From positions 52,034 through 116,033 of the IMG/VR virus record IMGVR_UViG_3300045747_000454: DNA of 64,000 bases; one strand, written 5' to 3'. Position numbers and translations under genes: made by a program. How positions within the stretch are numbered: the stretch's first letter is position 1; every line of letters starts with the position of its first letter. Below the pieces are notes generated by a model. That model saw nothing but the letters and a program-made list of their open reading frames with translations, was not told the DNA's origin and ran no database searches. This document shows positions 34,708 through 64,000 of the stretch, piece after piece. This stretch comes from a virus.

Positions 34708-36567
34708 ATGCCAACACCATCTTGCCCCGACTCAGTCGGCAGCGTCAACACACCGAACTCCACGGCGATCCCCGTATCGCCAACGAACCCGGCGCGGGCG
34801 TACGTCGCTCCAGCGCTGAACATCGGGACCTACTCTCTCACCGACGCCTGCTCGAACCTTGACTCGAAGTATCAAGAGGACGTCGCAGCAGAGAACCTCA
34901 ATGTGTCTGGTGCACCGGTCAACGTCTTCAAGCTGCTTGGCATTCACGAGCAGGGCAAGCTCATCGACCTCACTGGGACCGGCGCGCCACTCGGCAGCGG
35001 TGCTCCAGATCAGGCGTTCGATGCGCTTGCTGGGTCGTGGATCAGCGCTGAGACCGGTGCTGCCGTGCTTGAAGCGCCAGCCTACATCGGCTACGACTTC
35101 GGCGCTCGTCTCACATCATTCGGACAACCAGAGACGGTGCCGGCCCCGAACATTCAGCTGCACGTCACGTCCTTTCGCATTCAACAGGGTTCAGACCCAG
35201 CCACTCGCGCCCTTCAAGTTCGCATCGACCGAAGCCACGGTGGCTATCGCGTTGACCCACTGAAGGTCAACTTCACAGGCGTTGGCAATGGTGGCTTCGG
35301 CAGCTTCAGCGCTGGCGTTGAGGCGAAGCCTGGCACGCTGATGCTGGCTGCTCTCTCGCCAACGCAGTTCAGCGTCTTCTTCACGGGCAGCGCTGGCACC
35401 GTGGTGCTTGGCGTCGCCACCGTTGGTGTGCGCTTCAACTCAACGATCTGCTCGTTCACTCTCACGACTGGGTCAATCCCATACGATGTCAATGACCTCT
35501 TCACCGTAGTCATCGAGCTCGAGTGGCTGCGAGTTGACGTCGTCAATCTACCGAACCTCGCTACACCAGCCCTCATTCGCGTACGTCAATCATCGCAAGC
35601 TCGCTACTGGCGCGTTGTGCCGTTGAGCTTCGCTGGCGTGCTGAGCAATCAACCTTGGGTCGTTGAGAAGCTCGAGCTGTTCGACTTTCAGCAGACGCGC
35701 CTCGACGACATTCAAGATAGTCTGTACATGGAAAACCGTGACCGCGACTACGCCAAGGCGTCGATGCAGCTCAAGGCAGCGTACACACCGTTCGACGCCG
35801 TCAGCGACCTGTCGAAGTTCGGCTTCAGCATCGCCGACATCTACACCTTCACCACCAGCTTCGCGCAGATGGTCGCCACGCTTGGTCGTCCAATCGTTGT
35901 TGGCGATGTGCTTGAACTGCCAGGCGAGCTTGGCTTCGACCACAACCTCAAGCCAGTGCGCAAGTTCCTTGAGGTGTCAGACGTGAGCTGGAGCGCTGAG
36001 GGCTTCACCACGAACTGGCGTCCAATCCTCTATCGCTTTCAAGCGCAGAACCTGATCCCGTCGCAGGAGACACGCGACATTCTCGGCACCGCCGACACGC
36101 AGAAGTACATCATCGATGATGGTTCATTCTTCGCTGGCATCGAGCAGATCTCGACGGCCGACCTTACTGCCGCCGAGCGTAATCAAGCTGAAGCGGTCGA
36201 TGCTGTGCCTGAGAAGGGCACGAACGTTCGTGAGGAGGCCTCTGGCACGAATCGCTTCGGGCAGCCTGGCTCCTATGATGGCGTTGGTGTCTACGTTGAG
36301 GATGGTCTGCCGCCAGATGGCAAGCCATACGAGACTGGCTTCAAGCTGCCAGACGTTGGTACCGGTGTGAACGGATCCTTCTTCCGTCTTGAGTACGATC
36401 CGAAGCTCAACATTCCAGCTCGCCTCTACAAGTTCTCGAGCATTAAGGGCAAGTGGATCTTCGTTGAGACTGACCGTCGCACCGCTCGCTCAGCGCATCG
36501 TCCATCGCAGCTTGAGATTCTGAATCGCACGACCACGATGCCGCTCAACACTAAGAAGCCAGTCTGA
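34708..36567 (+). CDS. 14: neck protein gp14-like
   Basis: A 619-residue protein in the gp14 position (after gp13-like, before gp15); T4 gp14 is 256 residues. The segment V-G-D-V-L-E-L-P-G-E-L-G-F-D-H-N-L-K-P, K-F-L-E-V-S-D-V-S-W-S-A-E-G-F-T-T-N-W-R-P (about residues 395-440) resembles the gp14 neck core. The first 330 residues are a large beta-rich extension. Neck proteins close the filled head and join the tail. First gene of a fully coupled late operon. Confidence 0.6.
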   Translation: MPTPSCPDSVGSVNTPNSTAIPVSPTNPARAYVAPALNIGTYSLTDACSNLDSKYQEDVAAENLNVSGAPVNVFKLLGIHEQGKLIDLTGTGAPLGSGAPDQAFDALAGSWISAETGAAVLEAPAYIGYDFGARLTSFGQPETVPAPNIQLHVTSFRIQQGSDPATRALQVRIDRSHGGYRVDPLKVNFTGVGNGGFGSFSAGVEAKPGTLMLAALSPTQFSVFFTGSAGTVVLGVATVGVRFNSTICSFTLTTGSIPYDVNDLFTVVIELEWLRVDVVNLPNLATPALIRVRQSSQARYWRVVPLSFAGVLSNQPWVVEKLELFDFQQTRLDDIQDSLYMENRDRDYAKASMQLKAAYTPFDAVSDLSKFGFSIADIYTFTTSFAQMVATLGRPIVVGDVLELPGELGFDHNLKPVRKFLEVSDVSWSAEGFTTNWRPILYRFQAQNLIPSQETRDILGTADTQKYIIDDGSFFAGIEQISTADLTAAERNQAEAVDAVPEKGTNVREEASGTNRFGQPGSYDGVGVYVEDGLPPDGKPYETGFKLPDVGTGVNGSFFRLEYDPKLNIPARLYKFSSIKGKWIFVETDRRTARSAHRPSQLEILNRTTTMPLNTKKPV

Positions 36568-62119: not shown

Positions 62120-64000
62120 ATGTCCATTCTGCAAGAACTCACCTCTTCGGCGTACAATACGTCGGAGCTCAAGGCCATTCAGAGCTTTCTACTGGCAGAG
62201 AGCAAGACGCTCTCCGACCTCACGCTGAAGACCTGGCTCGGTACGGGCGAGAATCAAATCGCTAAGCGCGCTGCTGCGCTGCTCGACGACGACCTCGAAG
62301 CGCTGTACGCCTACTACAAGAGCAAGCCACGTCCAAAGGACACTGTTGGCGAGATGCGCTACGCCGCCATCATGTCGGCGTACAAGAAGCGTCACCACAT
62401 CACCGAAGCACAAGACGGCGAGCTCTCCGTTGGCGACACTGTCGAGGTCTCTGGCAACGTTCAGTTTCAAGACTGCGTCGGCGAGGTCGAAAGCCTGCAC
62501 GGTGGCTTCGTTGCCGTGAAGATCTACAGCTCGAACAGCACTCACTCATTCCACGCCTCTGACCTGCGCAAGATCGATGACGATCACGACCATGGCGATG
62601 ATGGTGATAACGAAGATGAGTACGATGGCGGTGACGGTGATGAATCGTTCTTCGTGGTCATTCACGACAGCGACGAGAACAAGTCGTTCATCGGCGAGTT
62701 CGAGAAGGACGGTGGTCGCTGGCGCGAGCACGTGGTGTCTGGCAAGCCGCCATACGCCTGGGGTGGTCGATTCATGAGCTACCTCAGTGCTCACGAGATC
62801 ATGTCGATGCTGACCCGCGACTTCAAGCACTACGAGGTCGAAGGTCCATTCGACAGCAAGGAAGAAGCCGTTGAGTTCGTTCACGGCAATCACGGTCACG
62901 ACACGCTGAAGGAAAGCGAAGAGCTCAAGGCGCTTGGTCGCAACATCAAGAAGGGCAAGAAGCCACCAGAAGATGAGTTGCCACCAGCTAATGATGAGCT
63001 GCCACCTGAGGACGGCGAGACTCCGCCAGTCGACGATGAGGCATCAACCGACGAGCCAGCACCAGAAGACGGTGATGTGCCTGCTGACGATGAGCTGCCA
63101 GCCGATGACGCTGCGCCGACCGACGAGCCGCCTGCCGATGAAGAGCCAGAAACAACGACCGCTGACACCGATACAGTGTCCGCCGACGCTGTCACGCCTG
63201 AGTTCAAGGTTGGCGACGTCGTCAAGCCGAACAAGGGTCAGCACGCTGGCGAACCACATGAGGTCGTTGGCATTCACCCAGACGGTGGTCTGCTCATCAA
63301 GCCACAGGGCCTCGATGACCAGGCAATCAAGTACACCGCCAAGTCGAAGACAGCCAAGATTCGCACCGACGACGTTGCCATCGTCGAGAGTCAGCAGCTG
63401 AAGCGTGGTCTGCTCAAGGCCGTCACTGAGACTCGTGTCGACAACGGTGCGCTGACGATGCCTGAGCTGCTCAAGCTCCGCAACGGTCTGTACGAAGCCG
63501 GCGACATGGTCGGCTATCGCGTCCTCGTTCAAGCCATCACCGAAGCCAAGAGCGGTGGCAAGCCACGCATGAAGGAAGTTGAGGGCAAGCTCGCAGCGCA
63601 CGCCAAGAGCAAGGGTGATCGCGAAGCCAAGTACGGCACGCTGTCGCCAGGCGACCAAGTGTCGCACGAGCAGACTCGCACGCGTCTGTTGAAGGACCTG
63701 TCGCGTGAGCGCAGCAAGGCCAACTGCTCTGAGGGCAAGGTCGGCGACTTCGTCGCAAAGGTCAAGCGCGGTGCCGAAGCAACTCAGAAGGCTCGCGGTG
63801 AAGCCGCAAAGATCTGGGGTTCGAAGGATGAAGACGAAGCCAAGAAGCACGTGAAGAACAGCAACCGCTACTCCAACCTCGGCACCGAGCGATCAGGTAA
63901 GTCCGACTACGTCCCACCGAAGAGCGCGCTGACCAAGCTGGCTGGCGCCGTCATGGGTCACCCAACCGGCGCGCCGAAGTACAAGGTCGGTGACACCGTC
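62120..64000 (+). CDS. large putative packaged protein, truncated by the window end
   Basis: An open frame of 627 codons with no stop before the window edge. Leader M-S-I-L-Q-E-L-T-S-S. Several possible gp21 sites recur (H-I-T-E-A near residue 98, A-I-T-E-A near 475). Residues about 275-360 are a long acidic Pro/Asp/Glu/Ala linker. Two short segments (L-S-V-G-D-T-V-E-V near 107 and F-K-V-G-D-V-V-K-P near 360, then Y-K-V-G-D-T-V at the edge) look like repeated SH3-like strands. It may be a polyprotein of small domains cut apart in the head. No enzyme motif seen. Confidence 0.75.
   Translation, partial: MSILQELTSSAYNTSELKAIQSFLLAESKTLSDLTLKTWLGTGENQIAKRAAALLDDDLEALYAYYKSKPRPKDTVGEMRYAAIMSAYKKRHHITEAQDGELSVGDTVEVSGNVQFQDCVGEVESLHGGFVAVKIYSSNSTHSFHASDLRKIDDDHDHGDDGDNEDEYDGGDGDESFFVVIHDSDENKSFIGEFEKDGGRWREHVVSGKPPYAWGGRFMSYLSAHEIMSMLTRDFKHYEVEGPFDSKEEAVEFVHGNHGHDTLKESEELKALGRNIKKGKKPPEDELPPANDELPPEDGETPPVDDEASTDEPAPEDGDVPADDELPADDAAPTDEPPADEEPETTTADTDTVSADAVTPEFKVGDVVKPNKGQHAGEPHEVVGIHPDGGLLIKPQGLDDQAIKYTAKSKTAKIRTDDVAIVESQQLKRGLLKAVTETRVDNGALTMPELLKLRNGLYEAGDMVGYRVLVQAITEAKSGGKPRMKEVEGKLAAHAKSKGDREAKYGTLSPGDQVSHEQTRTRLLKDLSRERSKANCSEGKVGDFVAKVKRGAEATQKARGEAAKIWGSKDEDEAKKHVKNSNRYSNLGTERSGKSDYVPPKSALTKLAGAVMGHPTGAPKYKVGDTV

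Follow-up and report, generated by a model that had tools for sequence, protein, structure and literature searches.

Why do about 25 genes of one phage encode proteins that begin with one of two short, recurrent sequences? The question is raised by a 64,000-nucleotide stretch of viral DNA with 57% GC (“the window”), which comprises bases 52034–116033 of the 116-kb contig of IMG/VR virus record IMGVR_UViG_3300045747_000454. A first-pass annotation of the window, made from the sequence alone, proposed that these N-terminal sequences, here called leaders, target unrelated proteins to the phage head, and that the proteins form an unusually large, co-injected arsenal. Here, we describe the leaders, the protein bodies behind them, and how they may work, giving all coordinates as window positions on the plus strand unless marked otherwise. 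We put the probability at roughly 0.8 that the leaders of this jumbo myovirus are modular capsid-targeting sequences like those of T4, and that enzyme cargo trimmed by the gp21 protease enters the host with the DNA. In such a system, the leader proteins would be made late in infection, together with the structural proteins; each protein would be docked by its leader in the prohead, within the scaffold core; gp21 would cut after the leader Glu, freeing the protein; and when the next cell is infected, the mature proteins would exit the head along with the DNA. The cargo would be mostly one expanded enzyme-like superfamily, probably resembling ADP-ribosyltransferases (ARTs); an amidoligase, a P-loop kinase, and several proteins without an assignment would make up the rest.

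Two leader types recur at gene starts

Two types of leader can be distinguished among the 131 predicted genes of the contig. The IP-type start (MITFKQFLxE) is present on nine genes, all in the region 36567–64000. Its pattern was derived from T4's own internal-protein (IP) leaders; none of 666 internal Met positions matches it, and shuffled N-termini gave a mean of 0.00 matches, with a maximum of 1 in 2000. The Alt/gp24-type start (MKLxELFE), referred to below as Alt-type, is present on 15 genes, 12 of them within the region; this pattern was fitted after inspection of the leaders, and its shuffle control gave a mean of 0.09 and a maximum of 2. Alt-type leaders are shorter than IP-type leaders and keep L3 and L6. 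The leaders in the window are real: every leader gene that the first-pass annotation named is present, with its leader, where the annotation placed it. Four of these genes (46430, 53517, 54422, and 58563) have a GTG start codon. The further claim that all leaders end in L-x-E was nearly right, the exceptions being 53517, where the Glu is residue 12, and four loose leaders (36567, 62120, 14450, and 531 on the minus strand) with no Glu at the expected position. Three of the four loose leaders contain L-Q-E-L, which resembles the I-T-E-L site of T4 Alt.

Both types have counterparts in T4. The T4 record gives MKTFKEF for IpI, MKTYQEFIAE for IpII/III, MELITELFDE for Alt, and MAKINELLRE for gp24; the first-pass annotation had cited MKTYQEFIAE for T4 internal proteins and a similar start for Alt. 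Like IPI, IPII, and IPIII of T4, the IP-type proteins have a 10-residue N-terminal leader with an aromatic residue at positions 4 and 7, I/L at position 8, and E at position 10, and both phages encode gp21 and place unrelated cargo bodies behind the leader. Whereas T4 has three small proteins of this kind, the window has ~23 larger ones, mostly of one enzyme-like superfamily, and it uses the second, shorter leader equally often. T4 Alt, a head-packaged ART that is N-terminally cut and injected, has a leader similar to MKLxELFE, and motifs that may be of ART type occur in the window bodies. However, Alt has no detectable sequence homology to these bodies (hhalign p 0.05 or worse), and it is a protein of 682 aa, whereas the window has many copies of 200–300 aa. 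T4 Alt is cut at ITE6 (PMC5694885); the Alt-type leaders of the window would probably be cut after LFE8.

Head genes of the window phage

The gp21 prohead protease reported by the first-pass annotation is indeed encoded in the window, at 23643–24251 (Peptidase_S77, E 3e-25). Downstream are two small core-like proteins with LTE-A sites (24255–24839, as 24255–24524 and 24543–24839), whose sites were read directly and whose position suggests a core role; a putative gp22-like scaffold (25295–26182), so assigned from its position beside gp23; and the gp23 major capsid protein (26210–27562), in which LIE-TAG aligns with the T4 site FLTE-AEIGG. A gp21-family protease and a gp23-type capsid are encoded in one genome with the leaders, and the L-x-E cleavage site is common to the leaders, gp23, and the core proteins. 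The closest named matches to the capsid protein, at 45% identity, come from Stenotrophomonas phages CM1 and RAS14 and Xanthomonas phage XacN1, each of which has a genome >300 kb; a nucleotide search of the first 25 kb of the window against named phages gave 0 matches.

Leader residues are conserved as bodies diverge

Relatives of the main superfamily of bodies (described below) were found in IMG/VR and named phages: in ~45 viral contigs, in Agrobacterium phage Atu_ph07 and Salicola phage SCTP-2, and in uncultured phages, usually in several copies per contig. A single narrow-pattern scan of bacterial and archaeal genomes gave 0 relatives. Among 183 distinct relatives, 171 have hydrophobic-x-Glu at residues 7–22, compared with 34 of 183 for an internal segment of equal size, and the residue after the leader Glu is A, S, or G in 45% of cases, compared with 13% at similar sites inside bodies. 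Because one search pattern included the leader, the sites were recounted on loci found with C-terminal motifs only; 21 of these 22 loci have the site, and inflation of the count by the search pattern was rejected.

The pattern of conservation follows what is known of T4. Across 75 sub-family 2 proteins, which share 16–52% identity with the first sequence, conservation holds at residues 4, 7, 8, and 10 and drops after the Glu; of 255 columns, the Glu ranks 10th and residue 9 ranks 227th. Mutagenesis of T4 leaders assigned targeting mainly to residues 4 and 7, and processing to residues 8 and 10 (PMC9026906). Window-type IP leaders are conserved at these same four residues, with position 9 free, and leaders are retained while bodies fall to 20–40% identity. 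The leader is the least certain part of AlphaFold2 models of the proteins at 39753 (pLDDT 95; leader end 73) and 59351 (pLDDT 92; leader residues 1–7 <50, first block 46), most of both bodies exceeding 90. In some relatives (L048, L049, L050, and L052), an extra stretch precedes the leader (MGIAKKMMGLKES-VTFRQFLEAA), as if leaders were stacked or the start codon misplaced.

A leader of this kind could instead dock proteins onto the tail, the baseplate, or a membrane, or serve as a translation or regulatory element. The arrays do adjoin genes that appear to encode tail proteins such as sheath and tube, but the leaders match those of T4 IPs, Alt, and gp24, they share their L-x-E site with the phage's own gp23 and core proteins, and small residues follow the Glu. 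A regulatory element, moreover, would not explain conserved amino acids encoded by varied codons. We consider a role of the leader outside head packaging unlikely.

The leader behaves as an interchangeable tag

Fifteen leader genes are paralogs, most of them arranged in tandem. Sub-family 1 has seven members (starts at 36567–40412). The first, 36567–37223, has a weak leader without the usual Glu (MLLQE-LTV), resembling the Alt site ITE-L; the second, 37220–37879, has the IP-type leader MMTFKDFIAE (37220–37249); and the others have Alt-type leaders: 37876–38514 (MKLRDLFE), 38517–39167 (MKLQDLFE), 39154–39753 (MKLSDLFE), 39753–40415 (MILQDLFE), and 40412–41092 (MNLRDLFE). Sub-family 2 has eight members (starts at 53517–56154 and 57781–60121). 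Four are IP-type, at 53517–54425 (MITFKQFLSLGE), 54422–55291 (MITFKQYLNE), 55294–56157 (MLTFKEYLEE), and 56154–57023 (MITFKEFLAE), and four are Alt-type, at 57781–58566 (MKLAELYE), 58563–59354 (MNLQELHE), 59351–60124 (MKLQELYE), and 60121–60915 (MRLAELFE). Leader-free profiles of the two sub-families align with an hhalign probability of 98.8 (E 5e-17), and both profiles match 311 of 339 related ORFs; on this profile evidence, they form one superfamily. Both leader types are present in both sub-families.

With the leader masked, the bodies of the remaining leader genes resemble neither those of the 15 nor one another, and at least six unrelated bodies bear a leader. These include an Amidoligase_2 protein (41874–43421, MITFRQYLEE; Pfam E 6e-10), several orthologs of which keep the leader; a P-loop kinase or zeta-like protein (57020–57784, MITFKQYLDE; Pfam AAA_33 1e-8, Zeta_toxin 1e-7), which keeps it in nearly all listed orthologs; and at least four bodies without assignment. 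Leaders with unassigned bodies are found at 45451–46089 and 46086–46433 (both MKVTELFE), 46430–46993 (MITFKQFLEE, kept in the L099 ortholog), 52766–53053 (a small body with the gp24-like leader MKVNELLDE), and 60949–62076 (MITFKQFLAE, kept in three orthologs). Loose leaders are found at 14450–14917 (MKLNELYGTRLNE) and 40–531 on the minus strand (MILQELLD), both with unassigned bodies, and at 62120–64000 (MSILQELTS), which runs past the contig end. The last encodes a long, acidic, low-complexity protein rich in Pro, Asp, and Glu; its relatives start MKLLQSLL or MKLTQ. A CTP-transferase-like protein (Pfam E 3e-7; 9351–10139, minus strand) has a degenerate leader, MDQDLFEDTVG, and its IMG/VR relatives L115 and L140 have a full one, MITFKQFFTE. 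The bodies are thus unrelated, as first described, for the leader genes outside the superfamily but not for the 15 paralogs. Cargo diversity is lower than originally claimed, since 15 of ~23 bodies belong to one superfamily, and the arsenal is not unique in size: related jumbo-phage contigs have 9–12 copies in the pieces examined.

Beyond the window, a DNA search of IMG/VR for MITFKQF placed the sequence on 17 family members as well as 45 further clusters of non-family bodies, 35 of them continuing to the Glu; the non-family bodies include phosphoribosyltransferase, RNA-ligase-like, and GNAT-like proteins. One homolog search in named phages for a leader-bearing ligase-like protein found 0. Leader type switches at least seven times across well-supported branches of a leader-free body tree, a number that is approximate, the FastTree tree having many long branches.

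Phage Atu_ph07 uses a leader dialect of its own. Eleven tandem relatives start with M-[KR]-W-x-Q-L-[TN]-E or a close variant, and the strict pattern M[KR]Wx[QED]LxE occurs 13 times in the 490-kb genome, compared with 0 for the reversed pattern. Besides members of both sub-families, the proteins that bear it include one isolated further member, one that matches ART-PolyVal weakly, and one more that is unrelated; the Atu_ph07 amidoligase starts MRWQDISSKKLTE. A count of coding sequences (CDSs) in the record places the array at gp53–63 and the amidoligase at gp196, since the same count reproduces the published landmarks gp125, gp132, gp198, gp204, and gp215. Mass spectrometry of Atu_ph07 virions identified three gene clusters with many virion proteins, CDS 31–76 (29 of 46 detected), 170–215, and 284–329 (PMC6102473); the array lies within the first and the amidoligase within the second, which is virion evidence at the level of clusters only. 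Atu_ph07 thus resembles the window phage in having both sub-families, a tandem array, an L-x-E leader of its own, and a leader-bearing amidoligase, and differs in its dialect (MKWxQLTE) and in the fusion of some members to other domains: in L009, one family domain is joined with a zeta-like kinase, and a second with a GNAT-like domain (19485–21821 and 29505–30593, both minus strand). The window encodes its kinase on its own, behind a leader that belongs to that gene (57020). Adjoining a family member, Atu_ph07 L207 476–1501 encodes a protein with an Alt-like start (MKLINLLEHD) and an LYHIT motif reminiscent of other ART-type enzymes; it has no match in Pfam.

Shared N-termini might also be remnants of duplication and recombination in tandem arrays, with no targeting role. 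In keeping with this, the superfamily consists of 15 paralogs in the window, most of them tandemly arranged, and certain leaders have codons in common. Remnants of this kind are, however, hard to reconcile with leaders on unrelated bodies, with leader conservation at 20–40% body identity while position 9 varies freely, and with a dialect that follows the phage rather than the body, and we consider them a very improbable source of the leaders. The leader behaves as an interchangeable tag. Packaging of the tagged proteins in the head is well supported, and they would be packaged and cleaved in the window phage as in T4. The capsid-targeting function first proposed has gained strong, if indirect, support from conservation at the T4 sites, small residues after the Glu, mixing of leaders and bodies, the dialect, and the cluster location in Atu_ph07.

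What the main superfamily may do

The superfamily carries L-Y/W-R-G, then S-x-S followed by A-x-x-Y/F-G, and E-V/I-x-I near the end, the order in which these motifs occur in ModA and ModB in the T4 record. The R and the E, which are R36 and E184 in the 39753 product and R49 and E227 in the 59351 product, are near-invariant, and sub-family 1 is without the first E of E-x-E. Such near-invariance of polar residues is suggestive of catalysis.

Several points weigh against a system of head-targeted, ART-like enzymes. The superfamily has no match in Pfam or NCBIfam, and searches of PDB sequences, and of PDB folds with two confident models, gave nothing significant. No fold match had E <0.001; weak ones include 2aua and 2a5f, both of which we take to be ART-fold proteins. 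In hhalign comparisons, ModA and ModB score above 15 T4 control proteins, but with p of only ~0.002–0.003, a weak signal; ModA relatives in IMG/VR are near-identical copies and useless for a profile. The virion-proteome evidence from Atu_ph07 is at gene-cluster rather than per-gene level, and the capsid relative XacN1 has no leader array in the 49 kb examined. The ART assignment is weak because both a Pfam match and a significant PDB fold match are missing; the superfamily lacks the significant sequence match that ART membership calls for and should not be filed as such yet.

Head targeting could be true and the main family nevertheless be something other than ART-like: a new fold, or internal structural or DNA-compacting proteins rather than injected enzymes. 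The lack of a significant fold match for the two models would fit such a family, as would the viral structure library, where strong matches are limited to uncharacterised jumbo-phage proteins. The motif order shared with ModA/ModB, its near-invariant R and E, the scores above the controls, and the polar residues argue in the other direction, as does a further Atu_ph07 protein, outside the superfamily, that bears the dialect leader and matches ART-PolyVal weakly (E 4e-4, which falls short of the Pfam cut-off). We regard a non-ART family as a real, though less favored, possibility, and lean modestly toward ART-like activity. Injection into the host and enzymatic activity are, for this phage, inferred.

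Probable late expression

The first-pass annotation placed the leader genes under late promoters. The exact T4 late box, TATAAATA, is absent from the window, so that this claim holds for a modified form only. TAAATA occurs at 23 sites (6–62093) compared with 2.4 expected, a tenfold excess, and the set of late boxes with one mismatch, mostly [CG]ATAAATA, numbers 17 compared with 2.6 expected, or ~sevenfold. Late-promoter-like sites lie ~25–60 bases upstream of structural operons and of 45451, 60949, and 62120, and leader genes are chained to their neighbors by overlaps of 1–4 bases. [CG]ATAAATA is probably the late promoter of this phage, and the sites and overlaps together make it very likely that the leader genes are late genes. 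Two candidate GIY-YIG homing endonuclease-like ORFs, recognized by eye, lie among the structural genes (33848–34663 and 10271–10816).

Implications

Capsid targeting by short leaders, and ARTs in myovirus heads, are established or have already been proposed (PMC9026906, PMC5694885, PMC9503650), and a review of T4 has suggested that T4-like phages can use this sequence to load a variety of proteins. The notion of a head that carries ARTs and other effectors is shared with polyvalent proteins and head-packaged phage ARTs, but there many domains are combined in a single polypeptide or fused with MuF/portal proteins, whereas the window encodes separate proteins with one short tag (Iyer et al., PMC5512222, PMC9503650). 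Neither the scale nor the pair of interchangeable leader types, the phage dialect, or the superfamily was found described in a literature search that left subscription journals and preprints largely outside.

We give about even odds to a broader proposal, in which a superfamily of small enzymes that is confined to phages and escapes both sequence and fold searches has been amplified to 10–15 copies per jumbo phage and is injected as a cocktail by means of interchangeable tags, each lineage having its own dialect read by the scaffold. On the reading we prefer, the principle of T4's few internal proteins extends to modular delivery on a large scale, recognizable from sequence alone, and a 10-residue tag would predict head cargo in uncultured jumbo phages. 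The uncharacterised superfamily would be a likely source of early-infection effectors that act against bacterial defences or in host take-over, and the phage-specific dialect may make the reading of the tag by the scaffold approachable by comparison.

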